Positions 1-12,831 of a DNA stretch of 12,831 nt are shown here, in pieces (the stretch's first letter is position 1; each line of letters starts with the position of its first letter). A program made the position numbers and the translations under genes. The notes under the pieces are model-generated. The model did not search any database, had not been told where the DNA came from, and worked only from the letters and a program-made list of their open reading frames with translations. Source of the DNA: Bacteroidota bacterium (GTDB lineage: Bacteria > Bacteroidota > Ignavibacteria > Ignavibacteriales > Ignavibacteriaceae); NCBI GenBank assembly GCA_022567875.1, contig JADFGB010000010.1, positions 1 to 12,831 on the forward strand, read 5' to 3'.

Positions 1-113
1 TATACAGCATTAAAAAAATAAAATTCAATCACGCAATCTTCCATATGTTTGTTTTAATTGGTAGTTTTTGTCATTTTATATCGGTGTTCATTTATGTTTT
101 ACCAAGTGAATAA
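1..113 (+). CDS. trhA: Haemolysin III family (PAQR-type) membrane protein, C-terminal end only
   Basis: Only the last 36 codons are in the window (reading from base 3, stop TAA at 111-113); the gene starts upstream of it. The visible peptide contains NHAIFHMFVLIGSFCHF, followed by a hydrophobic stretch and the tail VLPSE. This matches the final transmembrane helix of haemolysin III/TrhA proteins as I recall it: an HxxxH motif (visible residues 10 and 14), then a FVLxGSxxHF stretch. In PAQR proteins the two histidines of HxxxH help bind a metal inside the membrane. The family are inner-membrane proteins of about 200 residues with seven helices; the biochemical role in bacteria is poorly defined, though links to membrane fluidity have been proposed. 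The next gene starts 130 bp downstream on the same strand. The identification rests on a short but distinctive stretch. Confidence 0.75.
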   Translation, partial: YSIKKIKFNHAIFHMFVLIGSFCHFISVFIYVLPSE

Positions 114-243
114 ATCACCATTTGTTTTGTGGTAAATTAATAAACAAAATAAAAAGACTGCTAACATTGTATAAAAAAACATAGCCACCTGCTGAATGGT
201 GACACTTTTTATATATAACATTAAGAAATATTAAAAAGAAATA
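114..243 (+). other. Spacer before malic enzyme
   Basis: This 130-bp, very AT-rich spacer separates the haemolysin III-like gene from the malic enzyme gene. A near match to a Bacteroidota -7 box (TAACATTG, 162-169) is present, but I see no convincing upstream element at the right distance. The bases before the ATG at 244 are A-rich (TTAAAAAGAAATA) with no real Shine-Dalgarno core. A 7-bp inverted pair, TTTACCA (98-104) and TGGTAAA (130-136), has a 25-base loop and no T-run, so I do not call it a terminator. Confidence 0.3.
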
Positions 244-1857
244 ATGATTACAAAAAAAAGAAACTTTGAAGTGCTACATGACGGTACATTAAATAAGTCC
301 GTTGCTTTTACAAAAGAAGAAAGAGAACAATTAGGATTGAGAGGTTTATTACCATATTCAATTGTTAGTCAAGATATTCAGGTAAAACGTGTTATGAAAA
401 GTATAAAACGAAAAGCTTATGATATAGAACGTTATATACTTTTATCATCTCTGCAAGATCGTAATGAAAAGCTTTTTTATAGAGTTGTTATCAATCACAT
501 TGAAGAAATCATGCCCTTAATTTATACACCAACTGTGGGTCAGGCTTGTAAAGAATTTTCTCATATTTTCAGAAGATCAAAAGGTTTTTACATCACACCT
601 GATGATAAGGGAGAAATCAGTAAAATCCTTGATAACTGGCCTGAAAAGGATATCCGGATAATTGTTATAACAGATGGACAGCGTATACTTGGTCTTGGAG
701 ATTTAGGAGCAAATGGTATGGGAATTCCAATTGGCAAACTAGCATTATACACAGCTTGTGCTGGGATTCTTCCACACCAATGCCTACCGGTAATGTTAGA
801 TGTTGGTACAAATACTCAGGAAATATTAGAAGATATACTTTATTTAGGTTATCCAAAAAAAAGACTTGAAGGAGAAGAATATTTTGAATTGATTGAAGAA
901 TTTGTAATGGCTGTGCAGGAAAAATATCCGAATGTATTAATCCAGTTTGAAGATTTTTTAACTCCAAATGCTTACGCTTTATTGAATAAATACAGGAATC
1001 GTGTACTCTGTTTTAACGATGATATTCAAGGTACTGCTGCTGTTGCATTAGCGGGCGTGTATGCTTCTACTAGAATTACAAAAATAAAATTTTCAGATTT
1101 AAGAATTATGTTTTTAGGCGCTGGATCGGCTGCTACTGGTATTGCCGACCTTATGGTCTTTGCCTTTGAAGATGAAGGTTTGAGCAAAGAAGAAGCTTAT
1201 AAACGTTTATGGTTTGTAGATATAAACGGACTGGTAGTGTCAAACCGAGATGATTTAATGGAACACAATCTCCCTTATGCTCATGATTATAACCAGTTAA
1301 ATTTTATTGATGCAATTGATTCAGTAAAACCTCATATCCTAATCGGAGCCACAGGAGCTCCGGGTACATTCACAAAGAAAGTAATTGAACAAATGGCAAC
1401 CATTAATGAACGACCTGTAATTTTTGCTTTATCCAATCCTACATCTAGAGCGGAATGTACAGCCGAGCAAGCATATAATTGGAGCAATGGAAGAGCTATC
1501 TTTGCTAGTGGAAGTCCATTTGATAAGGTTCATTTTAATGGAAAAGAATACCGCCCCGGACAAGGGAATAATGCTTATGTCTTCCCAGGATTAGGCTTAG
1601 GTGCTATAATATCTATTGCTCGGACTATTCCAGACGATTTGTTTTTAGTTGTTGCTCGAACACTTGCCGAATTGGTGAATGAAAAAAATATTCAAGATGG
1701 TGCACTTTATCCACGATTAACAGAAATTAGGAATATATCATTAGCTATTGCCACAGCTGTAGCAGAAAAAGTTTATGAGTTAGGTATCGCTCAAAACGAT
1801 AAGCCTAAGGATTTAAAACAATTTATTTCGGACTATATGTATGATCCACGTTATTAG
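244..1857 (+). CDS. maeA: NAD(P)-dependent malic enzyme (SfcA/MaeA type)
   Basis: Cytosolic oxidative decarboxylation of L-malate to pyruvate and CO2 with reduction of NAD(P)+. The 537-residue protein is the right size for the eukaryotic/SfcA-type enzyme and clearly not the ~760-residue MaeB-phosphotransacetylase fusion. The N-terminal catalytic domain carries YTPTVG at 94-99 (Tyr94, predicted general acid), GIPIGK with Lys165 as predicted general base, FEDF with metal ligands Glu236/Asp237, and NDDIQGT with metal ligand Asp260. The C-terminal nucleotide domain has the Rossmann loop GAGSAATGIA at 292-301, then SNPTSRAE (397-404) and GNNAYVFPG (441-449). All expected active-site residues are present. 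NAD versus NADP preference cannot be read safely from the sequence. The ATG is the natural family start; no Shine-Dalgarno is evident. It appears monocistronic and converges on ppk1. It supplies pyruvate, the substrate of the PFOR encoded in the same window. Confidence 0.95.
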   Translation: MITKKRNFEVLHDGTLNKSVAFTKEEREQLGLRGLLPYSIVSQDIQVKRVMKSIKRKAYDIERYILLSSLQDRNEKLFYRVVINHIEEIMPLIYTPTVGQACKEFSHIFRRSKGFYITPDDKGEISKILDNWPEKDIRIIVITDGQRILGLGDLGANGMGIPIGKLALYTACAGILPHQCLPVMLDVGTNTQEILEDILYLGYPKKRLEGEEYFELIEEFVMAVQEKYPNVLIQFEDFLTPNAYALLNKYRNRVLCFNDDIQGTAAVALAGVYASTRITKIKFSDLRIMFLGAGSAATGIADLMVFAFEDEGLSKEEAYKRLWFVDINGLVVSNRDDLMEHNLPYAHDYNQLNFIDAIDSVKPHILIGATGAPGTFTKKVIEQMATINERPVIFALSNPTSRAECTAEQAYNWSNGRAIFASGSPFDKVHFNGKEYRPGQGNNAYVFPGLGLGAIISIARTIPDDLFLVVARTLAELVNEKNIQDGALYPRLTEIRNISLAIATAVAEKVYELGIAQNDKPKDLKQFISDYMYDPRY

Positions 1858-1985
1858 AAAGAAAGTACACTCGTTCAAATAAATATTTGTTAATAAAAGA
1901 TTTTTATGCGAACCATTTTCAATTCTGTTAATTTAGATAAAACAGGTGTTCCAAAGGAAATATTTAAAATAAATGTAAAGCATTC
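1858..1985. other. Convergent spacer between maeA and ppk1
   Basis: 128 bp lie between the two facing stop codons. The only structure I find is a weak hairpin, CTGTT (1925-1929) and AACAG (1941-1945), with an 11-base loop and no T-run on either side. A 27-codon ORF at 1906-1989 has no recognisable product and overlaps the ppk1 stop, so I do not call it. No confident terminator is visible. Confidence 0.3.
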
Positions 1986-4043
1986 TTAAACATTCATCTC
2001 TTTTAGATATTTATATGTCTCGTACTGTGATCTAATTTTAGAATGTGTGTCATCTCTTTTATATTGATTATCTTGAAATTCATTTATAATCCTGGATTTG
2101 ACATTATCTTTAACCTGAATATCAAATAATTTTTTCAGCATTTCTTTTAATGATTTATTATATATTGGAAAAGCTACTTCTATTCTTCTACTTAAATTTC
2201 TTTTCATCAAATCAGCAGAAGCCAAGTATATTTTTTCGTCTCCACCGTTGTGAAAAATATAAATTCTGCTATGTTCAAGGTACCTGTCAACAATACTATA
2301 TACTTTAATATTCTCACTTAAATTTATTATACCGGGTTTTAAGCAGCATATCCCTCTAACAATCATATCAATTTTAACACCTGCTTTTGACGCCTTGTAT
2401 AACTTTCTAATCATCTTTTTATCTTCAAGATTATTTATTTTAATTTTAATTGAAGAGGGTAAACCATTCTTTGCATTTGTAATTTCATTTTCTATTAATG
2501 CTTCAAAGCCTGATCTTAAGTAATGTGGAGCGGTCAATAAATGTTTTGTAGTTTGATGTTTTTCATGATTTGATAAAAACCGGAAAATTTTTCTTATATC
2601 TTTTATAAGTCTTTCATCAGATGTAAAAAAACCAAAATCAGAATATATTTTAGAGGATTTCTCATTAAAATTTCCGGTCGCTAAATAAGCATAAAATTTT
2701 ATTTTTCTATTTTCAATTCTTTTTATAAGACATAGTTTAGCATGTACTTTTAATCCCGGGAAACTATACAAAACATTTACACCTGCTTCCTCCATTTCCT
2801 TAGCCCAAAACAAATTTAACTCTTCATCAAACCGGGCTTTTACTTCTACAAACACAGTTACTTTTTTTCCATTTTGTACAGCTTTTATTAAAGACTTTAC
2901 GACTGAAGAATCGGTAGCTACCCTGTATAAAGTTATTTTTATTTCTTTTACTTTTTTATCAATAGCTGCTTCATTTAAAAAGTTTAAAACATAATTATAT
3001 GATTGATAAGGATAGTGAAGTAGTATATCTTTTTTTCTTATAGAGTTAAAAAAGGATTTATCCAAAGAAAAGAATTTGCTTGGTAGAGGGGGGTGTGGAG
3101 AATATACCATAGATCTTTTGGTGGGGTTTTGTAAAGTAAAAAAATCTTTAAAGTTATGATATCTACCTCCTTTTACTAAATCGTTTTTCTCAAGCCTAAA
3201 GTAATCAGTTATAAACTGTAAAAAATCATCGGGCATATTTTCATCATACAAAAATCTTGACGGAACACCGGTTTCTCTTTTACTAAGCCCTGATTTAATT
3301 TTTTCTAATAAATTTCCTGTAAATTCATCATCAATATAAAGTTCGGCATCTCTTGTCAGTTTAATTGAATATAAACCATATAGATCGTAGTTAGGTAATA
3401 ATTTTGGAAGACAATATCTTATAATATCATCTAAAAAAATAATGTTGTGCCTGCCACGATATTTTGGTAAAAAAATAAATCTTGGAAGATGACTAGAGGG
3501 TATTTCTATCAGTGCGTATTTAAATTTATGTTTCCTTCCATCATAATTCTTTTTTTTAATTTTAACAACAATGTAAAGTGCATCATTATTAAGAAATAAA
3601 TTTATTTTTTTGTTTACCAAAAATGTAGGCGCACAATAATTTTTGAGTACTTCCTCAAAATAATTATCAAGGAATTTCTTTTGATGTTTATTTATTCTTT
3701 TTTCATCAAGAATAAATATGTTGCTTTTATTTAATAAAGGAATTATTTCGTTTTTAAAAATATTACCGAATTCTATTTGCTGATTTGTTACAATATAATT
3801 TATTTGATTTAGCAGTACTTCAGGGTTGAAAGATAATTTTTTGTATTCGCTTCTTTTTAAATTGCTAAGAGTTCTTAGCGATGCTACCCTAACCCTATAG
3901 TATTCATCTAAATTTGAAGAGTAAATTGCTAAGAATTTTATCCTTTCAAAAAGAGGGACGGATTTATCCTTAGCTTCTTGTAAAACACGGTAATTAAAAG
4001 AAAGCCAGCTAATTTCTCGGTTATAATAATTACTAATATTCAT
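1986..4043 (-). CDS. ppk1: Polyphosphate kinase 1
   Basis: Reversibly transfers the gamma-phosphate of ATP to a growing inorganic polyphosphate chain through a phosphohistidine intermediate, usually at the inner membrane face. The 685 residues are almost the length of the E. coli enzyme (688), and key residues fall in near-identical positions: Asn44 (YSSNLDEYYRVRV, ATP base region), Arg374 (TLYRVATDS) and Arg404 (VKARFDE) as Mg/phosphate ligands, the autophosphorylated His434 (GLKVHAKLCLI) and the second catalytic His591 (YLEHSRIYIF). Order: N-terminal domain (NREISWLSFN at 8-17), head domain, then two phospholipase D-like catalytic domains. The start is the ATG at 4043, just before the conserved NREISWL motif; no Shine-Dalgarno is seen. 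It is the last gene of the minus-strand run, 9 bp after sixA, so expression probably depends on the upstream operon. No truncation or missing residue. Confidence 0.97.
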   Translation of the reverse strand: MNISNYYNREISWLSFNYRVLQEAKDKSVPLFERIKFLAIYSSNLDEYYRVRVASLRTLSNLKRSEYKKLSFNPEVLLNQINYIVTNQQIEFGNIFKNEIIPLLNKSNIFILDEKRINKHQKKFLDNYFEEVLKNYCAPTFLVNKKINLFLNNDALYIVVKIKKKNYDGRKHKFKYALIEIPSSHLPRFIFLPKYRGRHNIIFLDDIIRYCLPKLLPNYDLYGLYSIKLTRDAELYIDDEFTGNLLEKIKSGLSKRETGVPSRFLYDENMPDDFLQFITDYFRLEKNDLVKGGRYHNFKDFFTLQNPTKRSMVYSPHPPLPSKFFSLDKSFFNSIRKKDILLHYPYQSYNYVLNFLNEAAIDKKVKEIKITLYRVATDSSVVKSLIKAVQNGKKVTVFVEVKARFDEELNLFWAKEMEEAGVNVLYSFPGLKVHAKLCLIKRIENRKIKFYAYLATGNFNEKSSKIYSDFGFFTSDERLIKDIRKIFRFLSNHEKHQTTKHLLTAPHYLRSGFEALIENEITNAKNGLPSSIKIKINNLEDKKMIRKLYKASKAGVKIDMIVRGICCLKPGIINLSENIKVYSIVDRYLEHSRIYIFHNGGDEKIYLASADLMKRNLSRRIEVAFPIYNKSLKEMLKKLFDIQVKDNVKSRIINEFQDNQYKRDDTHSKIRSQYETYKYLKEMNV

Positions 4044-4052
4044 ATGTAAAAT

Positions 4053-4547
4053 TTAATGTTTATATTTCTTGGGATATTCAATAAACTCAAACGACCAATT
4101 ATCATCAATCTCTTCCCAGTTATCTGCTTCTTTTTTTAAACAAACTATTCCTGCGGTAGGAAGATTGTCTAATCTTTTATCAGAAATAAGATTAATTAAA
4201 TACGTAATTCCGGGGTTATGTCCAACAAGCATTAGGAATTTAAGTTTATTATTTGTCTGTTTTATAACATTAAGTAAATCTAATGCACTTGCTTGATATA
4301 TCTTTTTGTCTTTTCTAATATTTGAAAAAGAATATTTTAATTTTTCTGCTATTATTTTAGCCGTTGTAATTGCTCTTAAGGCGGGACTTGAAATTATTAA
4401 TTCCGGAGAAATATTTTTCTTTAATAATATCTCACCCATAAATGGTGCATTTCTTATTCCTCTTTTATTAAGTGGCCGGTCAAAATCATCAAGAGAGGGT
4501 GAACTCCAACTGGATTTAGCATGTCTTAGTAAGTATAAAGTTTTCAA
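4053..4547 (-). CDS. sixA: SixA-type phosphohistidine phosphatase (histidine phosphatase superfamily)
   Basis: Predicted cytosolic phosphatase of the RHG/histidine phosphatase superfamily. The 164 residues open with LYLLRHAKSSW (RHA motif, nucleophile His9), then DFDRPLNKRG (21-30), the SSPALRA arginine region (Arg58) and VGHNPG with the second catalytic histidine, His110. This short form lacks the lid insertions of phosphoglycerate mutases and fits SixA, which dephosphorylates phosphohistidine on proteins such as phosphotransfer domains; the target here is unknown. The start is TTG at 4547: it places the initiator exactly before the family's usual KTLYLLRHAK opening, the next in-frame ATG is at codon 37, and an in-frame stop lies four codons upstream. 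It is 36 bp after the PycTM gene and 9 bp before ppk1. SixA-like genes beside polyphosphate genes recur in bacteria, so a functional link is plausible. Confidence 0.9.
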   Translation of the reverse strand: MKTLYLLRHAKSSWSSPSLDDFDRPLNKRGIRNAPFMGEILLKKNISPELIISSPALRAITTAKIIAEKLKYSFSNIRKDKKIYQASALDLLNVIKQTNNKLKFLMLVGHNPGITYLINLISDKRLDNLPTAGIVCLKKEADNWEEIDDNWSFEFIEYPKKYKH

Positions 4548-4554
4548 TAATAAT

Positions 4555-4565
4555 TACCTAAGGTA
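4555..4565. promoter_or_regulatory. Short palindrome upstream of the sixA TTG start
   Basis: TACCT (4555-4559) and AGGTA (4561-4565) form a perfect 5-bp inverted repeat around one central base, in the 36-bp gap between the PycTM stop and the sixA start. It could be a small operator, part of an internal promoter, or chance. The arms are short and no second copy was noticed nearby. Confidence 0.2.
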
Positions 4566-4583
4566 GTTCAATAATTAATCTTA

Positions 4584-5174
4584 TTAAAAAAAATGAACCA
4601 TCTCTAAAAGAAACGATATAACAGCTATAATCAGTCCATACATAAAGATGTTATACGCAATTTTCAGGTATTTGTATTTTCTAATTAAAACGGTTCCAAC
4701 AGCATATATATCTCTAATCATACTTAAATAAATATATTCTCTGTCGTTCATTACTACAGTCATTGCTTTTTCATATTCCTCTAAAGACATTTTATAAAAG
4801 TTACCAAAAAAAAGAAGGTTTCCTTTCTTTTGTTCAACATCTTCTGGGGTTATATTACCAGATGATACTTTCGGACGAGTAGCTATAGTTGCAAAAACTA
4901 TAGTTACAACACATACAATTAATAAAATAATAGTGGGAATAATAAGATCTTGATCTACACTAACCCTTCTAATTACAACTGATAATATTATTGAAATGAT
5001 AACAGCATTTATACTAATTAATATATTTGCTTTTCTGTCTGCAATAGCGCTTAAATTTAAATGATTTCTGGAAGTTATTCTGAATAAAGTTTCAATACCT
5101 CGGTCGGTTTTATTTTTCTTTTTTTGTTTACCCATTGTTTCAATATTATTTTGAATTTTTTCTTCTTCATTCAT
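4584..5174 (-). CDS. PycTM/DUF5706 (Pycsar-effector family) membrane protein
   Basis: A 196-residue predicted inner-membrane protein of the family now called PycTM (formerly DUF5706), whose defence members respond to cyclic pyrimidine nucleotides (cCMP/cUMP) by disrupting the membrane. The N-terminus is charged (Lys-rich at 16-24), followed by the family-like stretch LSAIADRKANILISINA (41-57), which leads into helix 1 (about 50-69). Helix 2 spans about 78-98 and ends at ATRPKV (98-103). A cytosolic segment includes NLLFFGNF (119-126) and RDIYAVGTVLIRKYKYL (154-170), and helix 3 covers about 173-193. This gene is unusual here in having a Shine-Dalgarno-like AAAAGGA at 5183-5189, 8 bases before its ATG. 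It follows the HD gene by 22 bp, in a different frame. In many Bacteroidota the two domains are, as I recall, one fused protein. No nucleotide cyclase gene is in the window, so a defence role is inference only. Confidence 0.8.
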   Translation of the reverse strand: MNEEEKIQNNIETMGKQKKKNKTDRGIETLFRITSRNHLNLSAIADRKANILISINAVIISIILSVVIRRVSVDQDLIIPTIILLIVCVVTIVFATIATRPKVSSGNITPEDVEQKKGNLLFFGNFYKMSLEEYEKAMTVVMNDREYIYLSMIRDIYAVGTVLIRKYKYLKIAYNIFMYGLIIAVISFLLEMVHFF

Positions 5175-5196
5175 AATAATAATCCTTTTAAAATAA

Positions 5197-5796
5197 TTAT
5201 TTAAATTGATTTTTTAATTTCTCTATGTTTTTTATTCTTTGTAGTCCATAATTTGTTTTTGCATATTTTGTATAAAAATTATGTTTTGTTAAAAATTCTA
5301 TGTTATTCTTTATCCATTCGTCATCAGAATAATTTTTATTCTGATTTTGTTTAAGTTCTTTGCGTAACAGTTCGGACTTCTCTAAACAATCATCGTTACC
5401 TATATGTAAAATATCAGCGTCTGATAAAATCCCTTCTAAAAGAGAATTTGGAACGTGGGATAACTTTGTTGCTTCAATGCATTTTTTAACTTGTTCAATA
5501 TCTTCAATTAAAAAATTATTAGCAATTAAAAAATTTTCGGCAATATCAATACTTACTTTTTCATGCCCATTTATTCCTTTACTGTATCCCACATCATGAA
5601 ACCAGGCGGCAAGTATTGCTATATCAAATTCTTTTTCTGATAATAATAAAGCCCTGCTAATCTCTTCTGTATTTTTTACTACATCTAAAGTATGGTTAAT
5701 ACAATGATAGTTATAATCTGTACTTAAATAATTTGATAGATATTCTGTAACATATTTTTTTGCTTTATCAATTATATTACTCAAAATATCCTCCAT
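5197..5796 (-). CDS. HD-domain phosphohydrolase (type found fused to PycTM)
   Basis: Predicted cytosolic metal-dependent phosphohydrolase of 199 residues, all helical in appearance. HD-superfamily landmarks are in order: YHCINHTLDVV with candidate ligand His35 (29-39), WFHDVGY with His67-Asp68, GHEKVSIDIAENFL (77-90), CIEATKLSH (106-114) and SDADILHIG with Asp126/Asp128 (125-133). The set H...HD...D is complete, so it should be catalytically competent. The C-terminal half (KSELLRKELK, then YSDDEW and FYTKYAKTNYG) also resembles the HD half of HD-DUF5706 fusion proteins as I recall them. The substrate is unknown: a (cyclic) nucleotide is a reasonable guess given the neighbour, but not shown. 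It is the first gene of the tight HD-PycTM-sixA-ppk1 run and begins 131 bp after the DHOD-like relic. The ATG at 5796 has an in-frame stop codon immediately upstream and no Shine-Dalgarno. Confidence 0.85.
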   Translation of the reverse strand: MEDILSNIIDKAKKYVTEYLSNYLSTDYNYHCINHTLDVVKNTEEISRALLLSEKEFDIAILAAWFHDVGYSKGINGHEKVSIDIAENFLIANNFLIEDIEQVKKCIEATKLSHVPNSLLEGILSDADILHIGNDDCLEKSELLRKELKQNQNKNYSDDEWIKNNIEFLTKHNFYTKYAKTNYGLQRIKNIEKLKNQFK

Positions 5797-5927
5797 CTAA
5801 AATATTGAATAAATATATACATTAACAAAACAAAAGAAAGAAAAATAAATAAAATAGTTGTGATAAAAAGCACTTAATAAGAAAGGGCCATTACAAGAAG
5901 TGATTGATCCTAAAAGTGAGGATGATT
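5797..5927 (-). other. Spacer between the DHOD-like relic and the HD gene
   Basis: 131 AT-rich bp on the minus strand. It is the only place in the block long enough for a separate promoter for the HD-PycTM-sixA-ppk1 operon, but I find no convincing -35/-10 or -33/-7 pair. A weak hairpin, ATCCT (5907-5911) and AGGAT (5919-5923) with a 7-base loop, sits just after the relic's stop. It has no following U-run, so readthrough from nifJ cannot be excluded. Confidence 0.25.
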
Positions 5928-6044
5928 TTATTTATATGAATTTAATACACTCATATAATTTGCTCTTTTAAATTGTGAAGGGTCCGCAGAAGGGATAACC
6001 GGATTTTTTAAATCCATTCCTAAATATTTTGTTACTAATTTCAT
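5928..6044 (-). pseudogene. Internally deleted relic of a dihydroorotate-dehydrogenase-like gene
   Basis: A 38-codon open frame starts with ATG at 6042-6044, overlapping the nifJ stop as ATGA (the TGA is at 6041-6043). Its first part, KYLGMDLKNPVIPSA, matches the N-terminus of the DHOD-like protein commonly encoded next to nifJ (family form about YLGLxLKNPLVPSAS). Its second part, DPSQFKRANYMSVLNSY, matches the C-terminus of that same family (about DPxxFERANYMxxLxSY), followed at once by TAA. The intact protein is about 330 residues, so nearly 290 codons from the middle, including the FMN barrel, are absent and the two tips are joined in frame near codons 20/21. It cannot be a working flavoenzyme. 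The family forms are quoted from memory. A real deletion, a population variant or an assembly collapse are all possible. Confidence 0.7.
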
Positions 6045-9000
6045 CTTATCACATTGTTAAATTTTTTTTCATTTTCCTGGATATTTTCTTCCTCTCCCTT
6101 TTTAAGAGGTTTAAAAGAGTTTAACTGCTCGTACATATTCCATTTTTCTTCAACATCTTTTTGCGCTTCTTTCATTAATCTTTTTGCTCTTTCGGGATGA
6201 GACTTTGTGAGCATTTTATATCTTGTTTCCATATATGCATAATCTTCAAATGGAATCTTTAATCCCTTTGATTCAAGTTTAAAAGGATTTTTACCTTCTT
6301 TTACTAAATCAGGATTATATCTGTACAATTGCCAATAACCGGAATCTACAGCAGCTTTTTGGTTATGCATTGCAAGCCCCATATTTATTCCGTGTGCAAT
6401 ACAATGGCTGTATGCAATTATTAATGAAGGACCATCATATGCTTCAGCCTCTAAGAATGCTCTTACTGTTTGTGTGTCATTCGCTCCGAGAGCAACTTTA
6501 GCGACATAAACACTACCGTAAGATATTGCCATAATTCCCAGGTCTTTTTTGGCTACGGATTTACCTGCTGAAGCAAATTTGGCAACTGCAGCTCTTGGAG
6601 TAGATTTTGACATCTGTCCGCCGGTATTAGAATAAACCTCTGTATCAAGAACAAGAATATTTACATTTTTACCTGAAGCTAATACGTGATCTAATCCGCC
6701 AAAACCTATATCATAAGCCCATCCGTCGCCGCCAATAATCCAAACAGATTTTTTAACTAAATAATTGGAAAGAGATAAAAGCTGTTTTATATCGGCGGTT
6801 CTACCGTTAGAAGAATTCTTTAACTGATCATTTAGTTTATTATTTAAAGTATCAACATATCCGCGTTGTTCATAAATGCCTGCTTCGTCTTTTTGCTCAT
6901 TGTTCAGTATATTATTAATTAGTTCATCACCTATTTCATTAGAAAATGTAGTTAGTAATGTTTTTGCATGTTCTTGGTGTTTATCAATTGCCAATCTAAA
7001 ACCAAGACCAAATTCAGCGTTATCTTCAAACAAAGAGTTATTCCATGCAGGACCTCTTCCGTCTTTGTTTACTGACCATGGAGTTGTTGGGAGATTACCG
7101 CCATAAATAGAAGAACATCCTGTTGCGTTTGCGATAACTGCTCTGTCACCGAACATTTGAGTGACAAGTTTTATATATGGTGTTTCGCCGCAACCTAAAC
7201 AAGCACTTGAAAATTCGAACAATGGTTCTAAGAACTGTGAATCTTTAACCTTAGTTAAATTAATTTTTGTTCTGTCAAGCTCAGGTAAAGACAAAAAGAA
7301 ATCCCAATTTTCTCTTTCCTTCTTTCTTAAAGGTATTTGTTCGTACATGTTTATAGCTTTCAGACGAGTATCGCTTTTGTTCTTTACAGGACAAACATCC
7401 ACACAGATTTCGCAGCCTGTACAATCTTCAGCTGCAACCTGAAGTGAATACAAAAGATTTTCCCCGTAATCTTTTGCTTTGAATTTAATGTATTTAAATT
7501 CTTTGGGAGCATCTTTTAATTGATCTTCTTCGTAAATTTTTGCTCTTATAGTTGCGTGGGGACAAACAATAACACACTTGTTACACTGAATACAAATATC
7601 CGGATCCCAAACAGGAATCTCTAAGGCAATATTTCTTTTTTCCCATTGTGTTGTACCGGAGATGTAAGTACCATCAGAAGGTAGTTGGCTTACGGGTATG
7701 GTGTCTCCTTTGCCTGCAATCATTTTGGCAATAATATTTCTTACAAATTTGGGAGCTTTTTCAGATACTGAAGCATTTATTTCAGTTCTACTGGTAACTT
7801 CTTTTGGTACTTCAACTTTAAATAAATTAACAAGTGTTTGATCTACAGCGGCAAAATTCATTTCTACAATCTTTTCACCCTTTGAACCATAGGTTTTCTT
7901 TATTGAATTTTTGATCATTTCAATAGCTTTCTCTTTTTCAAATATATTTGAAATAGCAAAAAAGCAGGTTTGCATAATTGTATTTATTCTTGTACCCATT
8001 CCGGTTGCGTGTGCAACTTTATAGGCATCAATAATGTAAAGATTCATCTTTTTTTCAATCAAATCTTCCTGTACCTTTTTTGGTAATGAATCCCATACTG
8101 TATCTTTCGACAACTTAGTGTTCAATAGAAATGTTGCACCTTCCATTGCATCTTCAAGCATGTCAAATATTTCTAAAAATACATGCTGATGGCAGGCAAT
8201 AAAATTAGCTTTATTAATTAGATAAGTCGATTTTATTTCTTTAGGTCCAAATCTTAAATGTGATATTGTTGTGGAACCCGCTTTCTTTGAATCATAAACA
8301 AAATAACCCTGAGCAAAATAATCTGTTCCTTCGCCGATAATTTTAATTGAATTTTTATTGGCACCGACGGTTCCGTCAGAGCCTAAACCATAAAATTTAC
8401 CTCTAAAAGTTTCGTCTGATTCAATTGAAAATTGTGGATCATATTTCAAACTTGTATTTGTAACATCGTCAATAATACCAATTGTAAAATGATTCTTGGG
8501 TTTATCTTTTTTCATTTCATCATAAATACCTTTTATCATAGCCGGAGTAAATTCTTTTGACGACAATCCATATCTTCCGCCTATAATTTTTGGAAAAGCA
8601 AAAGGAAGTGTACCATCCATAAACCTTTCTGAAATAGCATTTACTATATCTAAGTACATCGGCTCACCTGAGGCACCGGGTTCTTTTGTTCTATCTAAAA
8701 CAGATAAAGTTTTTACGGTTTTGGGTAAAGCATTTATAAAATGTTCAATAGAGAACGGTCTGTATAATCTTACTTTTAACAAACCGACTTTCTCTTTTTG
8801 AGCCGTCAAAAAATCAACGGTTTCTTCCACAGCCTCCGCACCCGAACCCATAATTATAATTATCCTTTCCGCATCAGGTGCGCCAACATAATCAAATAGA
8901 TGATATTGCCTTCCTACTAACTTTGCAAATTTATCCATTTTCTTTTGGACTATATCAGGACATTTTAGATAGTAAGGATTTACTGTTTCTCTTGCTTGAA

Positions 9001-9676
9001 AATAAACATCAGGATTTTGTGAAGTTCCCCTTATAAAAGGATTATCCGGATTCAAAGCCCTTCCCCTATGGGCTAAAACCAGGTTATCATCTATCATGGC
9101 ACGCATATCATCAAGTGTAAGTTGTTCAATTTTTTTTACTTCATGAGATGATCTGAAACCGTCAAAAAAGTGGAGGAAAGGAATTCTTGTCTCTAATGTT
9201 GCAGCTTGTGCAATTAAGGTAAAGTCCATAACTTCTTGTACTGAATTTGAACACAGCATTGCAAAACCTGTTGACCTTGCAGCCATTACATCACTATGAT
9301 CTCCGAAAATAGATAATGCCTGGGCGGCAATGGATCTTGCTGCTACGTTAAATACTGTAGATGTCAATTCACCCGCAATTTTAAACATATTGGGAAGCAT
9401 AAGAAGAAGCCCCTGTGAAGATGTAAATGTTGTTGTCAAAGCTCCTGTTTGTAAAGCACCGTGTACTGCACCGGAAGCACCGCCTTCACTTTGCATTTCA
9501 GTTACAGTGGGCACGTCGTTCCAAATATTTTTTTCGCCTCTCACAGACCAGGCATCTGACCACTCGCCCATATTTGATGATGGTGTGATTGGATAAATTG
9601 CTATTACTTCGTTAATATGGTAAGCAATATATGCTGCAGCTTCGTTTCCGTCAATTGTTACTTTCTTTCTTTCCAT
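6041..9676 (-). CDS. nifJ: Pyruvate:ferredoxin (flavodoxin) oxidoreductase, single chain
   Basis: Cytosolic enzyme: pyruvate + CoA + oxidised ferredoxin to acetyl-CoA + CO2 + reduced ferredoxin. The 1211-residue chain has the full fused-domain order. Pyrimidine/substrate domain: YPITPSS with Thr31, Glu64 in MQSEGGASGA, and Arg114. The CoA-binding and linker domains follow. The two-[4Fe-4S] ferredoxin domain has CxxCxxCxxxCP at Cys695/698/701/705 and again at Cys752/755/758/762. The proximal cluster ligands are Cys826 and Cys829 (CLGCG), Cys854 (ATGCSS) and Cys1092 (SHCIAHG). The TPP-binding core is GGDGWAYDIG (982-991) with NTGGQMSKST (1017-1026). These positions track the well-studied Desulfovibrio enzyme. 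The C-terminus is a short Lys/Glu-rich tail. No residue is missing. The ATG at 9676 has no Shine-Dalgarno. The stop overlaps the start of the DHOD-like relic, so nifJ heads a translationally coupled pair that is now broken. Confidence 0.98.
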   Translation of the reverse strand: MERKKVTIDGNEAAAYIAYHINEVIAIYPITPSSNMGEWSDAWSVRGEKNIWNDVPTVTEMQSEGGASGAVHGALQTGALTTTFTSSQGLLLMLPNMFKIAGELTSTVFNVAARSIAAQALSIFGDHSDVMAARSTGFAMLCSNSVQEVMDFTLIAQAATLETRIPFLHFFDGFRSSHEVKKIEQLTLDDMRAMIDDNLVLAHRGRALNPDNPFIRGTSQNPDVYFQARETVNPYYLKCPDIVQKKMDKFAKLVGRQYHLFDYVGAPDAERIIIIMGSGAEAVEETVDFLTAQKEKVGLLKVRLYRPFSIEHFINALPKTVKTLSVLDRTKEPGASGEPMYLDIVNAISERFMDGTLPFAFPKIIGGRYGLSSKEFTPAMIKGIYDEMKKDKPKNHFTIGIIDDVTNTSLKYDPQFSIESDETFRGKFYGLGSDGTVGANKNSIKIIGEGTDYFAQGYFVYDSKKAGSTTISHLRFGPKEIKSTYLINKANFIACHQHVFLEIFDMLEDAMEGATFLLNTKLSKDTVWDSLPKKVQEDLIEKKMNLYIIDAYKVAHATGMGTRINTIMQTCFFAISNIFEKEKAIEMIKNSIKKTYGSKGEKIVEMNFAAVDQTLVNLFKVEVPKEVTSRTEINASVSEKAPKFVRNIIAKMIAGKGDTIPVSQLPSDGTYISGTTQWEKRNIALEIPVWDPDICIQCNKCVIVCPHATIRAKIYEEDQLKDAPKEFKYIKFKAKDYGENLLYSLQVAAEDCTGCEICVDVCPVKNKSDTRLKAINMYEQIPLRKKERENWDFFLSLPELDRTKINLTKVKDSQFLEPLFEFSSACLGCGETPYIKLVTQMFGDRAVIANATGCSSIYGGNLPTTPWSVNKDGRGPAWNNSLFEDNAEFGLGFRLAIDKHQEHAKTLLTTFSNEIGDELINNILNNEQKDEAGIYEQRGYVDTLNNKLNDQLKNSSNGRTADIKQLLSLSNYLVKKSVWIIGGDGWAYDIGFGGLDHVLASGKNVNILVLDTEVYSNTGGQMSKSTPRAAVAKFASAGKSVAKKDLGIMAISYGSVYVAKVALGANDTQTVRAFLEAEAYDGPSLIIAYSHCIAHGINMGLAMHNQKAAVDSGYWQLYRYNPDLVKEGKNPFKLESKGLKIPFEDYAYMETRYKMLTKSHPERAKRLMKEAQKDVEEKWNMYEQLNSFKPLKKGEEENIQENEKKFNNVIR

Positions 9677-9726
9677 AATATAAAGTTTTCTCTGTTAGTT
9701 TATGTATAAATTTTATATATATAATC

Positions 9727-9734
9727 CAAAACTA
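9727..9734 (-). promoter_or_regulatory. Candidate -7 box for nifJ
   Basis: Read on the minus strand, this is TAGTTTTG, an exact match to the Bacteroidota TAnnTTTG -7 consensus, about 50 bases before the nifJ ATG. That would give a leader of some 40-45 bases. No clear TTG-type -33 element lies at the usual distance upstream, so support is partial. Confidence 0.3.
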
Positions 9735-9843
9735 TACCAAATAAATATTATGATTCTGCTCTGTTTTTTAGCATTTTATTTTTACCATCTATAAATTCAA
9801 TAAGTTTTCAATCAATTTATTCCCAATATAAAGAATTTTATGT

Positions 9844-9877
9844 TTTGTTACTTTTAAGTAGTTTAATACTATATTTT
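9844..9877 (+). promoter_or_regulatory. Candidate promoter for the TauE/SafE permease
   Basis: Two overlapping readings are possible. One is Bacteroidota-like: TTTG (9844-9847) and TATATTTT (9870-9877), 22 bases apart and one mismatch from TAnnTTTG. The other is sigma-70-like: TTGTTA (9845-9850) and TACTAT (9867-9872), 16 bases apart. Either would start transcription about 10-20 bases before the ATG at 9897. In such AT-rich DNA this can arise by chance. Confidence 0.25.
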
Positions 9878-9896
9878 TATCCATTTTATTGCCTTT

Positions 9897-10712
9897 ATGG
9901 AATTCATTTTAATATTAATTTTAGCTTCATTATTTGCTGCTTTTGGAACAATTATAGGTTTTGGGGGCGGTATTTTTATGATTCCAATCTTGGTTATTGG
10001 TTTTAATTTACCAATAAATGTTGCTGTCGGTTCTGTTATTTTGGCTTTATTTCCGGGTTCACTTGTTTCATCTTACTTTAATCATAAAAGAAAAAAAATT
10101 GATTACAGGGCTGGAATCACTCTTGAAATTCCTACCGTTATAGGTACAATTCTTGGAGCATATTTAACCTCTGTTCTTGCTCTTAACATACTAGAAATTG
10201 TGTTTGCAGTATTTGTAAGTGCAGTCGGTTTTAGTATGTTCAGAAAAATATCTATAAATATATCAGAAGATAGTAGACCGGAAATATTTAAAAAGTTAAA
10301 TAAATTAAATCCTGCCATTACAAGTACAACAAAAAATATACAATACAGAATGAGTTATTTATTAACAGGAATATTTGGATTGTCTGCCGGGTTTATTTCG
10401 GGCTTGTTTGGTATAGGTGGTGGTTTTTTAAAAACTCCAATTATGGTAAATGTGTTCAACATTCCTCCTTCGGTAGCATCGGCAACAGCATTATTTATGA
10501 TTGTTTTTACAAGTTTGACCGGAAGCATCTCTCACTTTTATTTGGGGCATTTAAACTTTTCTTACAGCATTCCTATCGTTATTGGATTTATTCTTGGGGC
10601 TTTTTTAGGCAATCAATTAAACTTAAAAATATCGGAAAAAACATTAAAAATATTAATTGGTTTTGGACTATTTGCAGCCGGATTTTCTATTTTGCTTAAT
10701 ATTATTTTATAA
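9897..10712 (+). CDS. TauE/SafE-family membrane permease
   Basis: A 271-residue, highly hydrophobic inner-membrane protein with about eight predicted helices. Two homologous halves each begin with the family's glycine motif: GFGGGIFMIP at 21-30 and GIGGGFLKTP at 172-181. Each is followed by a PxxVAxxSA-like segment (LPINVAVGSVILALFPGS at 38-55; PPSVASATALFMIVFTS at 190-206). A charged loop (about 116-151) separates the halves. The family (often named sulfite exporter TauE/SafE, or DUF81) exports organic or inorganic sulfur anions such as sulfite or sulfoacetate in characterised cases; most members have no known substrate, and nothing nearby (no sulfur-metabolism gene) identifies one here. The ATG at 9897 starts directly at the first helix; no Shine-Dalgarno is seen. 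It diverges from nifJ and converges on the rhomboid gene with a 9-bp gap. Confidence 0.9.
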   Translation: MEFILILILASLFAAFGTIIGFGGGIFMIPILVIGFNLPINVAVGSVILALFPGSLVSSYFNHKRKKIDYRAGITLEIPTVIGTILGAYLTSVLALNILEIVFAVFVSAVGFSMFRKISINISEDSRPEIFKKLNKLNPAITSTTKNIQYRMSYLLTGIFGLSAGFISGLFGIGGGFLKTPIMVNVFNIPPSVASATALFMIVFTSLTGSISHFYLGHLNFSYSIPIVIGFILGAFLGNQLNLKISEKTLKILIGFGLFAAGFSILLNIIL

Positions 10713-10732
10713 AAAATCTTATCAAGTTTTTT
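10711..10732. terminator. Weak A/T hairpin at converging stop codons
   Basis: AAAAAATCTT-ATC-AAGTTTTTT forms an imperfect inverted repeat (3-bp CTT/AAG stem, one T-T mismatch, then five A-T pairs). It overlaps both the TauE/SafE stop (10710-10712) and the rhomboid stop (10722-10724), with a T-run on either strand. The layout suits a bidirectional terminator, but the stem is too AT-rich to be sure. Confidence 0.3.
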
Positions 10733-11333
10733 CTATTTCTTCTTCATCTTCCCAATCATATTTTTTTATAGGATCTGATTTTCTAAAAATGATTGCAGCA
10801 TAAATTCCAGTTAATGCACCAAAAAGATGATACTCCCACGATATTTCTCTACTCAATGGAAGTACACCCCAAATTAGACCTCCGTATAAAAATGTTACGA
10901 TTAAAGCCAATGCAATTGATCTGTTGTCTCTTCTAATAAGACCACTAAAAAACAGAAATGTTACATACCCATAAACCAATCCGCTTGAACCTATGTGGTA
11001 GGATTCTCTTCCAAGAAACCAAACAAGTATTCCGGGAATTAAGTAAACCATAAAAAAAACTTTATATGCAGCTTCTTTATAAAAATAAAATATACCGCTT
11101 CCTAAAAATAATAAAGGTATAGAGTTTGAAATTATGTGATTGAAATCGGAATGAATTAAGGGTGCAGTAAAAACACCAATGAGTCCTTTGGCGGTTTGTG
11201 GGAACAGTCCATATTTAGCAAGCTTAAGTGAAAATAAATATTGTGCAAATTGTATCAACCATAATAAAACCAAAAAGGATAATGGAATAATTATTAATCT
11301 TAATTGTTTTTCATTGCTTTCTGTTTTGTTCAA
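10722..11333 (-). CDS. Rhomboid-family intramembrane serine protease
   Basis: A 203-residue membrane protein with about six predicted helices, the basic bacterial rhomboid core. Motifs: HSDFNHIISNS (61-71) with His66 and Asn70, which help form the oxyanion hole; the catalytic serine motif GSSG at 115-118 (Ser117); and EYHLFGALTG (167-176), which supplies the partner His169. The catalytic dyad is therefore complete. Rhomboids cleave transmembrane segments of other proteins inside the bilayer; the substrate here is unknown. The C-terminus is a very acidic cytosolic tail (DWEDEEEIEK). The start is TTG at 11333: an in-frame stop lies about ten codons upstream, and no in-frame ATG occurs before the middle of the protein. 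The gene follows mltF by 81 bp on the same strand and may be co-transcribed with it. Confidence 0.88.
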   Translation of the reverse strand: MNKTESNEKQLRLIIIPLSFLVLLWLIQFAQYLFSLKLAKYGLFPQTAKGLIGVFTAPLIHSDFNHIISNSIPLLFLGSGIFYFYKEAAYKVFFMVYLIPGILVWFLGRESYHIGSSGLVYGYVTFLFFSGLIRRDNRSIALALIVTFLYGGLIWGVLPLSREISWEYHLFGALTGIYAAIIFRKSDPIKKYDWEDEEEIEKT

Positions 11334-11414
11334 TATATGCCTAAAATGAGATTCCCAATATTAAAAAATAATCAACCTATTGTTTAAATTTTGGATTTTT
11401 GTTATTTGTGATTT

Positions 11415-12831
11415 TTAATAAGTGTTTATTGCCAAATGTTTATCCGAGTTTTCCTTTGTACTTATAAACTGTTTGTAGCGAGTATATAAATCAAGAATAT
11501 CCCTTACATACTCAACTGTTTCAATCCCTCTGCTGTATCCATACGTTACAACATCATCATTATAATATTTTTTCTTTGATTTCTGTAAAAGATAAAATTC
11601 TACATTTCCGTCCCATTTAATAGGATCTCTGCCATATTTTTCAGTAAGTTTTCTAGCGTCTATTATGTGTCCTAAACCGACATTATACGAAGCAAGAATA
11701 AACTTAATCTTTTCATTTTTATCCTCAATATATTTACTCCAATAATTATTTAACCACACTAAAAACTTTATACCTGCATTCAGACTTTGCTTTGGATCAG
11801 TTCGGTTGTCAGCTCCGTATTGTTTAGCTGTTGCAGGCATTAGCTGCATTAGACCCACAGCGCCGGCCCAAGATTTAGCTTCGGGATTAAACTGTGATTC
11901 TTCATAAATCTGCGCAGCCAATAAACGCCAATCCCAGTTTAATTTTTTTGCGTACACTTTAAACAAACTATCATATTTAGAAATGCTTCCGCCGGTAAGA
12001 GAAAAGAATTGACTTTTTGATCTTCTTCTAAAGTTTGCCCTGTTTTTAAAATACTTGTTATAAATTATATAATATATAGGTTTCTTTAAGATATTATCAA
12101 TCCAGGTATTTAAAGTATCTAATAATTGATGGGTGTCTTTTTTTACAGCCCAGGCAATTTTTTGTGGTAGAGAGATTTTTGTACTTATGTCAATATTTGT
12201 AAATGATGCCTGATTAAGCCGTGCAATATTTTCATCGGATATAGTGTAATCAATTTTACCTTCAGCAACCAACTCGATAAGATTTTCGGTTGTTAATTCA
12301 GGATCAGCAACAACAATATTTATATCTCCGCCTATTTCATCGGAAAGATTCTGCAATCTTGAAATATATGAAGACCCGCTTCGTACATAAACTGTTTTGC
12401 CTTCAAGGTAAATTGGATTTGTAATTATTTTCCTTTTTATTTGATCGAGGGTAATTCGTCTCCAGTTTTTAGGTTTTCTTTGTACCAAAACCTGAGTAGT
12501 TGTATTAGTGTGGTGTGTAAAAGCAACCTTTTTATTTCTCTCTTTAGTAACGGTTAAATTAAAAGCTATTAAATCTCCTTTTCCTTCGTTTAGCAGTGTA
12601 AACATATCGTTAATATTTTTAACAACCTTTATCTCAACATCTACTCCCAAATATTTACCGAATTGATTGAGCAGTTCATACTCAAAACCCATTGGCTGCC
12701 CTTTGTAAATAAAATAGCTGTAAGCATTGTAACCTGTTAGAGCAACTATTTTACCTGTTTTTTTTATCTTTTCTAATTCTGTCGGTTTATGTACTTCTTT
12801 CTTTCCGCACCCAATATTTATAAATATCAGT
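11415..12831 (-). CDS. mltF: Membrane-bound lytic murein transglycosylase F (lipoprotein), 5' end cut by window
   Basis: Cleaves the MurNAc-GlcNAc bond of peptidoglycan, leaving 1,6-anhydroMurNAc; acts in the periplasm. The open frame runs to the window edge (first whole codon at 12830-12828), 46 codons beyond the first in-frame ATG at 12692, which is not the real start. Those codons encode INIGCGKK, a lipobox-like end of a signal peptide with the cysteine at visible residue 8, then GKIVALTGYNAYSYFIYKG, the beginning of a periplasmic solute-binding domain (SBP-bac-3 type). The SLT domain follows in the C-terminal half: EESQFNPEAKSWAG with the catalytic Glu encoded at 11898-11900, GLMQLMPATA, and ASYNVGLGHIIDA. 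This domain pair defines MltF. Numbered from 12692, the solute-binding part covers about 1-215 and the SLT part about 240-410. Only about ten residues of signal peptide should be missing. No start or promoter is visible. Confidence 0.92.
   Translation of the reverse strand, partial: LIFINIGCGKKEVHKPTELEKIKKTGKIVALTGYNAYSYFIYKGQPMGFEYELLNQFGKYLGVDVEIKVVKNINDMFTLLNEGKGDLIAFNLTVTKERNKKVAFTHHTNTTTQVLVQRKPKNWRRITLDQIKRKIITNPIYLEGKTVYVRSGSSYISRLQNLSDEIGGDINIVVADPELTTENLIELVAEGKIDYTISDENIARLNQASFTNIDISTKISLPQKIAWAVKKDTHQLLDTLNTWIDNILKKPIYYIIYNKYFKNRANFRRRSKSQFFSLTGGSISKYDSLFKVYAKKLNWDWRLLAAQIYEESQFNPEAKSWAGAVGLMQLMPATAKQYGADNRTDPKQSLNAGIKFLVWLNNYWSKYIEDKNEKIKFILASYNVGLGHIIDARKLTEKYGRDPIKWDGNVEFYLLQKSKKKYYNDDVVTYGYSRGIETVEYVRDILDLYTRYKQFISTKENSDKHLAINTY

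Follow-up and report, generated by a model that had tools for sequence, protein, structure and literature searches.

A split HD-PycTM gene pair beside a polyphosphate kinase in the Ignavibacteriaceae: a candidate nucleotide-signalling module

The window analysed here, a stretch of 12,831 nucleotides from a Bacteroidota bacterium of the family Ignavibacteriaceae (assembly GCA_022567875.1, contig JADFGB010000010.1, positions 1 to 12,831), contains a row of four minus-strand genes that joins a PycTM membrane protein to a putative hydrolase and to polyphosphate synthesis. The row begins with an HD-domain phosphohydrolase of 199 aa (5197-5796; Pfam HD PF01966, 1.3e-8), followed after a 22-bp junction (5175-5196), which carries a Shine-Dalgarno-like AAAAGGA ahead of the next ATG, by the PycTM protein of 196 aa (4584-5174). 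A branch 1 histidine phosphatase of 164 aa with a TTG start comes next (4053-4547), and the row ends with polyphosphate kinase 1 (PPK1), of 685 aa (1986-4043). The gaps of 22, 36 and 9 bp that a first-pass annotation, made by a model from the letters of this DNA, had given for the four genes were confirmed by open reading frame (ORF) calls. Its identification of 4584-5174 as PycTM (DUF5706) was also sound: the protein scores 115 bits against PF18967 (2.4e-33), where the cut-off is 27.2, which places it in the Pycsar effector family; the PADLOC models for PycTM and 2TM effectors match as well, and hydrophobic windows lie at residues 48-75, 70-104 and 170-196. The name SixA, which the annotation had used for the phosphatase, holds in part. 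The protein is a histidine phosphatase (His_Phos_1 PF00300, 9e-10) with LYLLRHAKSS near its N-terminus, but its score against the SixA equivalog TIGR00249 (53.6 bits) falls under the 74.5-bit cut-off, and the gene is therefore called a SixA-like histidine phosphatase here. The PPK1 has all four PPK1 domains in Pfam and, like known PPK1 enzymes, passes the equivalog cut-off of TIGR03705 over its full length (NCBIfam); it is the sole PPK1 detected in the window genome, an incomplete assembly (1.85 Mb, 77% complete). That the four genes form one operon-like unit is part of the reading developed below, to which as a whole we give an even chance.

Comparison with relatives suggests that the HD and PycTM proteins, which look like the halves of one ancestral protein, are not partners that met in an operon. 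Among 59 genomes (the window's and 58 relatives), strong PycTM matches lie mostly in frames of about 400-470 aa, the exception being the window's own genus with frames of 202-219 aa; the long frames, whose usual size in relatives is about 410 aa, hold HD and PycTM in a single chain. The window HD protein matches a profile of this fusion at positions 4-197 (9e-62) and the window PycTM at positions 209-400 (4e-83), and the PycTM half falls in one clade with the fused proteins, so that both homology and phylogeny place the pair in the fusion family. The window HD is 29-42% identical to 36 fused proteins in an alignment, and in 15 fused proteins found by profile rather than by motif the PycTM half is the more conserved of the two. 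A wider survey started from 161 sequences (the window and 160 loci), with L041 and L042 (weak, another kind of PycTM) and L176 (no ORF picked) excluded. Of the 158 loci with a PycTM of the broad kind, 133 have it fused to HD, 5 have a separate adjacent HD and 20 have no HD; merging at 97% identity leaves 152 loci, of which 127 are fused. The fused share is biased upward, because the query behind 80 named loci was a fused protein, used together with conserved PycTM motifs, and these loci are the best 80 of at least 558; all of them are fused, as against 53 of the 78 others. In a less biased sample across the phylum, 91 of the 150 PycTM frames listed reach at least 385 aa (one or more of them being a cyclase fusion), 12 are of 230-384 aa and 47 are shorter. 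The annotation had seen the right two genes, but the partnership that it assumed looks more like a division of one protein.

The same split is common to the window and two sister species (G004 and G001), in which the junction has AAAGGA. In a further genome, G003 (locus L040), the two frames are split with an ATGA overlap and the PycTM groups with a fused protein, arguing that this split is independent; the trees in this study are FastTree trees with midpoint rooting, and several inner nodes are weakly supported. Both halves are under purifying selection, with dN/dS values of 0.25-0.37 for HD and 0.14-0.26 for PycTM; those of the SixA-like gene and PPK1 are 0.11-0.16.

The association with polyphosphate kinase recurs well beyond the window. 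In 80 PycTM genomes, hand-picked for spread over genera, PPK1 lies within 10 kb of PycTM in 30 and within 2 kb in 26. About 0.64 would be expected by chance for the 10-kb distance, by an estimate that ignores shared ancestry and approximates the sizes and PPK1 numbers of 56 genomes by their mean. The 26 close pairs fall in eight families (f1, f2, f3, f16, f22, f24, f25 and f51), and PPK1 is downstream on the same strand in 24 of them. Counted by genes, PPK1 is found within five genes in 22 of the 80 named loci, Pedobacter, Mucilaginibacter, Chitinophaga and Reichenbachiella among them, and in 39 of the 127 non-redundant fused loci; a SixA-like gene lies within the same distance in 24 of the 127. 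The neighbourhood is conserved in relatives, one of the points on which the annotation had let its proposal stand or fall.

The annotation also missed that the linked PPK1 of the window's order is, by its phylogenetic placement and scores, a special second paralog. Many of the 80 PycTM genomes have two PPK1s. In the order, one PPK1 belongs to a well-supported clade that is unlinked, and the PPK1 adjacent to HD-PycTM, which is lower-scoring and about 685 aa long, groups apart with moderate support (two genes labelled "unlinked" in the PPK1 tree are in fact a linked gene, G374b, and a fragment of one, G027). The linked paralog is present in 15 of the 19 HD-PycTM genomes of the 59-genome set versus none of the 40 others, with one left unassigned (Fisher 1e-10, uncorrected for ancestry). 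The tree includes 13 of these 40; G002 is without PPK1, G014 has only a fragment, and the remainder were judged by their single high-scoring PPK1. G007, whose PycTM hit is weak, was grouped with the genomes that lack HD-PycTM. The PPK1 of the window belongs to the paralog lineage linked to HD-PycTM, and so differs from other PPK1s in that within the order its lineage is found only beside HD-PycTM. In the window's genus only this linked gene has been kept in four of five genomes, the fifth (G002) having neither PycTM nor PPK1. In G031 the PPK1 adjacent to HD-PycTM is in two frames (L031 6807-9154), and the other PPK1 is whole.

A second line of evidence comes from another family of the same phylum, f32, in which PycTM is associated with a nucleotide cyclase. 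PycTM is present in 29 of its genomes among the matches listed, and 27 remain when G306 and G346, which have short divergent PycTMs only, are left out. A class III cyclase-TPR gene lies directly upstream of PycTM on the same strand in 13 of the 27, the cyclase is fused to PycTM in 5, and 9 have no adjacent cyclase; the enzyme is thus fused or directly upstream in 18. The five fusion proteins (L162, L177, L244, L245 and L246) hold a class III nucleotidyl cyclase catalytic domain and PycTM in a single chain of 356-395 aa, two of them (L162 and L177) having been checked with Pfam and the rest called by a home-made profile. The PycTMs of this family score like the window's, many have a gene of the metallophosphoesterase/Omp85 cluster nearby, and in the tree they make up a supported clade that is separate from, but near, that of HD-PycTM. 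They differ in having the synthase instead of HD or, twice, besides it: in 2 of the 13 genomes with an upstream cyclase the gene order is cyclase-TPR, PycTM, HD (L168 6777-10103, plus strand; L243 7024-10355, minus strand). Furthermore, a convergent class III cyclase stands beside a fused HD-PycTM in Marinoscillum (L066 and L080) and in family f26 (L178, L261 and L262); another f26 genome, G191, has such a pair by coordinates among the matches listed, and its fused frame was confirmed. Synthase and hydrolase thus trade places on one membrane module, as one would expect if that module were a nucleotide receptor.

These relationships bear on whether the window carries a reduced Pycsar system. 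PycTM is described as a membrane-disrupting effector of abortive infection that is activated in Pycsar by cyclic pyrimidines (PMC11224242). The window protein resembles the PycTM that is paired with PycC in exceeding the PF18967 cut-off and in being a small protein with about three membrane segments; it differs in having no cyclase, in belonging to a distant PycTM clade, in the HD hydrolase that occupies the synthase's place and in its chromosomal neighbourhood with phosphate genes. The absence of a cyclase beside it, which the annotation had reported, was upheld: no class III cyclase was found among the window proteins scanned with Pfam, and PF00211 gave no matches in the window genome (77% complete) or in three congeners (one 98% complete), among the matches listed. 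The same search among the 80 genomes lists a class III cyclase in 60. As a positive control, short divergent PycTMs lie beside class III or AGS-C cyclase-like genes in L191, L195, L197, L200 and L201, the cyclase being detected in L191, L195 and L201 by the very family used on the window; others lie beside receiver-domain cyclases in L189, L193 and L196. Eight of the 11 short PycTMs thus have an adjacent cyclase or AGS-C gene (L190, L192 and L194 showed none), and all 11 make up one long-branched clade, separate from that in which the window protein falls together with the other HD-PycTM proteins. Since the canonical cyclase-linked PycTMs lie in this distant clade and the window PycTM does not group with them, the HD-PycTM unit is, as far as such comparisons reach, not simply a Pycsar system, nor simply one that lost its cyclase, a distinction that the annotation did not draw.

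In three of the loci with short PycTMs (L189 4885-6934, L193 3298-5314 and L196 4904-6915), a receiver-domain class III cyclase of 346 aa (Pfam-checked in L196), a receiver-like protein of about 124 aa and the divergent PycTM stand in a row, possibly a two-component-controlled variant of Pycsar.

The HD half retains its ligand residues, in agreement with the intact H...HD...D set seen by the annotation: H35, H67-D68 and D126/D128, together with H31, are all kept in the window protein. Its closest sequence matches in PDB are YedJ, BH2835 and 2pq7 (E 5e-8 to 3e-6, by profile), and YpgQ, whose activity is nucleoside triphosphate (NTP) pyrophosphohydrolysis and whose H, HD and D ligands are known, was matched by fold and not by sequence. 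The putative hydrolase is like the YpgQ/YedJ family of Mn-dependent (d)NTP pyrophosphohydrolases in its ligand pattern and in its fold, the latter taken from a model of a fused relative; it differs in being fused to, or split from, a membrane PycTM and in a conserved H78-E79. In the same model, PDE10A ties with YpgQ and 2pq7. The class I cyclic-nucleotide phosphodiesterases are distant in sequence (15% identity for PDE10A and kin, E 0.5-1 for other phosphodiesterases by sequence), and any phosphodiesterase activity is putative here; the chemistry would most likely be that of a cyclic mononucleotide phosphodiesterase or a related nucleotide hydrolase. Degenerate HD ligands occur in the fusions L034 (1088-2326), L160 (9228-10511) and L182 (9102-10367), which are perhaps sensor-only forms; L034 comes from G053, a genome that also has no linked PPK1.

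The best way to read the unit, and the one that gets the even chance given above, is as a chromosomal nucleotide-signalling module coupled to phosphate and polyphosphate metabolism rather than an anti-phage Pycsar system. PycTM would be a membrane receptor that binds a small nucleotide signal on its cytoplasmic face, and HD, held beside it as part of one polypeptide in most loci examined and as the product of a neighbouring gene in the window, would be a dedicated hydrolase that destroys the nucleotide, thereby resetting or gating the receptor. A chromosomal copy, being constantly present, would have to be switched off in some way, and HD could do so. The PPK1 paralog and the histidine phosphatase in the same operon would couple the module to phosphate metabolism, linking signal state and polyphosphate level; polyphosphate would be the likely output or co-input, and the histidine phosphatase a further phosphate enzyme. 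The sign of control cannot be guessed, given the precedent of Panoptes, in which a membrane effector of another family is held off by a constant ligand (PMC12657218). Of the readings considered, a signalling module that includes polyphosphate synthesis, as the annotation proposed, has the most support from the comparisons, namely the fused relatives, the split maintained under selection, the PPK1 linkage, the paralog co-occurrence, the exchange of cyclase and HD, the HD residues and a predicted YpgQ/PDE-like fold. The unit itself is real and conserved, and the joint function that we infer for it can be tested. A broader proposal is tentative and rather doubtful at present: a conserved Bacteroidota axis in which a messenger read by PycTM and erased by an HD phosphodiesterase controls a dedicated second PPK1, the synthase being a class III cyclase or another enzyme according to lineage. 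Such an axis would be a housekeeping pathway from which, or beside which, Pycsar immunity arose, and would give polyphosphate synthesis a nucleotide-messenger input by way of a PycTM protein.

Several observations weigh against the signalling module. PPK1 is absent within five genes from 88 of the 127 fused loci (some contigs end early) and so need not accompany HD-PycTM. The second PPK1 paralog is missing from four genomes of the order that do have HD-PycTM (G008, G038, G039 and G053); in these a SixA-like gene adjoins HD-PycTM or lies two genes from it. Among the matches listed, a class III cyclase is missing from four genomes of the window's genus and from 16 of the HD-PycTM genomes among the 80. 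The universal messenger can therefore not be a class III product; it must differ or come from elsewhere. The inner branches that join the cyclase-linked PycTMs of f32 to the HD-PycTM clade are weakly supported, a few fused proteins (L034, L052, L160 and L182) no longer have the HD ligands, and the fold match, in tying a pyrophosphohydrolase with a phosphodiesterase, does not choose between them. The nucleotide ligand, the HD substrate and co-transcription are all putative.

One alternative, which we consider unlikely, is a house-cleaning role in which HD would be a membrane-held YpgQ-like (d)NTP pyrophosphohydrolase, PycTM a mere anchor and the operon a grouping of phosphate-transfer enzymes, with no messenger involved. 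The nearest PDB sequences and the known activity of YpgQ suit this role, as do the phosphatases and kinase among the neighbours; the greater conservation of the PycTM half is unlike a mere anchor, and another family has PycTM next to cyclases or fused to them. The messenger could also be c-di-AMP, with HD as a c-di-AMP phosphodiesterase at the membrane, comparable to PgpH of other bacteria, and PycTM as a c-di-AMP-gated membrane protein; we consider this version quite improbable. A DisA-type cyclase domain was found in all six genomes tested, including four from the window's genus, where class III cyclases are missing from the matches listed, and no SMODS was found in the six; but in these genomes the DisA-type gene is either on a different contig or some 400 kb distant, and it is class III cyclases that take HD's place on PycTM. 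It is very unlikely that HD acts directly on polyphosphate or another phosphate polymer as an exopolyphosphatase counterpart of PPK1. The linkage to PPK1, the lack of any exopolyphosphatase gene seen in the operon and, more weakly, a fold similarity to the HD domains of GppA/PPX (E 0.05 and worse) speak for such a role, but this similarity is far weaker than that to YpgQ, the HD domain of GppA/PPX is not the catalytic centre, and in many loci PPK1 is not found within five genes of HD-PycTM.

Least of all do we expect a Pycsar anti-phage system minus its cyclase, or a cyclase-independent defence effector, an idea that draws on the name of PF18967, on the PADLOC matches and on the f32 pairs of cyclase and PycTM, which resemble Pycsar in make-up. 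A defence remnant was considered as the principal explanation and rejected because the canonical cyclase-linked PycTMs form another, distant clade; the HD-PycTM clade, moreover, has a recurrent chromosomal neighbourhood. Searches with the window PycTM agree with the rejection but find only close relatives: there were no phage matches and none confirmed in viral contigs, and the one plasmid record is an 859-kb Persicobacter replicon.

What is of interest, then, is the split form, the PPK1-coupled HD-PycTM unit and the exchange of cyclase and HD: a large chromosomal PycTM clade carries an N-terminal hydrolase (a cyclase in another family) and is recurrently tied to a special PPK1 paralog. If the signalling module is correct, PycTM, a membrane protein so far associated with immunity, also exists in a housekeeping form that serves signalling, the Pfam name "Pycsar effector protein" is misleading for such genes, and the way in which Bacteroidota control polyphosphate synthesis is opened to experiment. 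A search of the open-licence literature found no paper on DUF5706, none joining Pycsar and PycTM with an HD domain, none joining Pycsar with polyphosphate, and none joining polyphosphate kinase, a cyclic nucleotide and an HD domain in Bacteroidetes; for Omp85 with a metallophosphoesterase in Bacteroidetes it gave a paper on a different subject.

The polyphosphate link proposed by the annotation recurs, as described, but across the phylum the commonest neighbour is a different gene, that of the metallophosphoesterase/Omp85 cluster, found within five genes in 81 of the 127 fused loci (L087, L102, L125 and many more). Its proteins are of about 1216 aa, and three members checked by Pfam have the two domains either jointly or separately; the neighbour clusters were built by single linkage of blastp hits. 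A protein of about 793 aa with no Pfam or NCBIfam match (cluster 2) is within five genes in 53 of the 127 loci, and a propeller-cluster gene (PF06977 in one member checked) in 38; class III cyclases, called by a home-made profile and Pfam-checked in 2 cases (L027 and L066), are so placed in 12. Pedobacter sp. BAL39 (L087) has, on one strand, HD-PycTM, PPK1, a propeller-cluster gene, a gene for a 786-aa protein and a gene of the metallophosphoesterase/Omp85 cluster that is truncated where the locus ends. The window operon is without these outer-membrane genes. In L132 (8198-9211), and also in L131, L046 and L047, a K+ channel with TrkA-N/C domains lies on the opposite strand between HD-PycTM and sixA-ppk1.

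The flanks of the window are ordinary by Pfam (malic enzyme, pyruvate:ferredoxin oxidoreductase, TauE, rhomboid and a solute-binding/transglycosylase protein), and Rfam and tRNA scans of the window gave no matches. Pattern scans of the operon found no terminators and 42 promoter-like sites, against 27 expected in shuffles; because Bacteroidota promoters are of a different type, the scan is uninformative. Between the pyruvate:ferredoxin oxidoreductase and HD genes (5931-6044, minus strand) are the remnants of a decayed dihydroorotate-dehydrogenase-like gene, of which about the first 22 and last 19 codons are still recognisable, and at the same position L039 has an open gene of 329 aa (PF01180).

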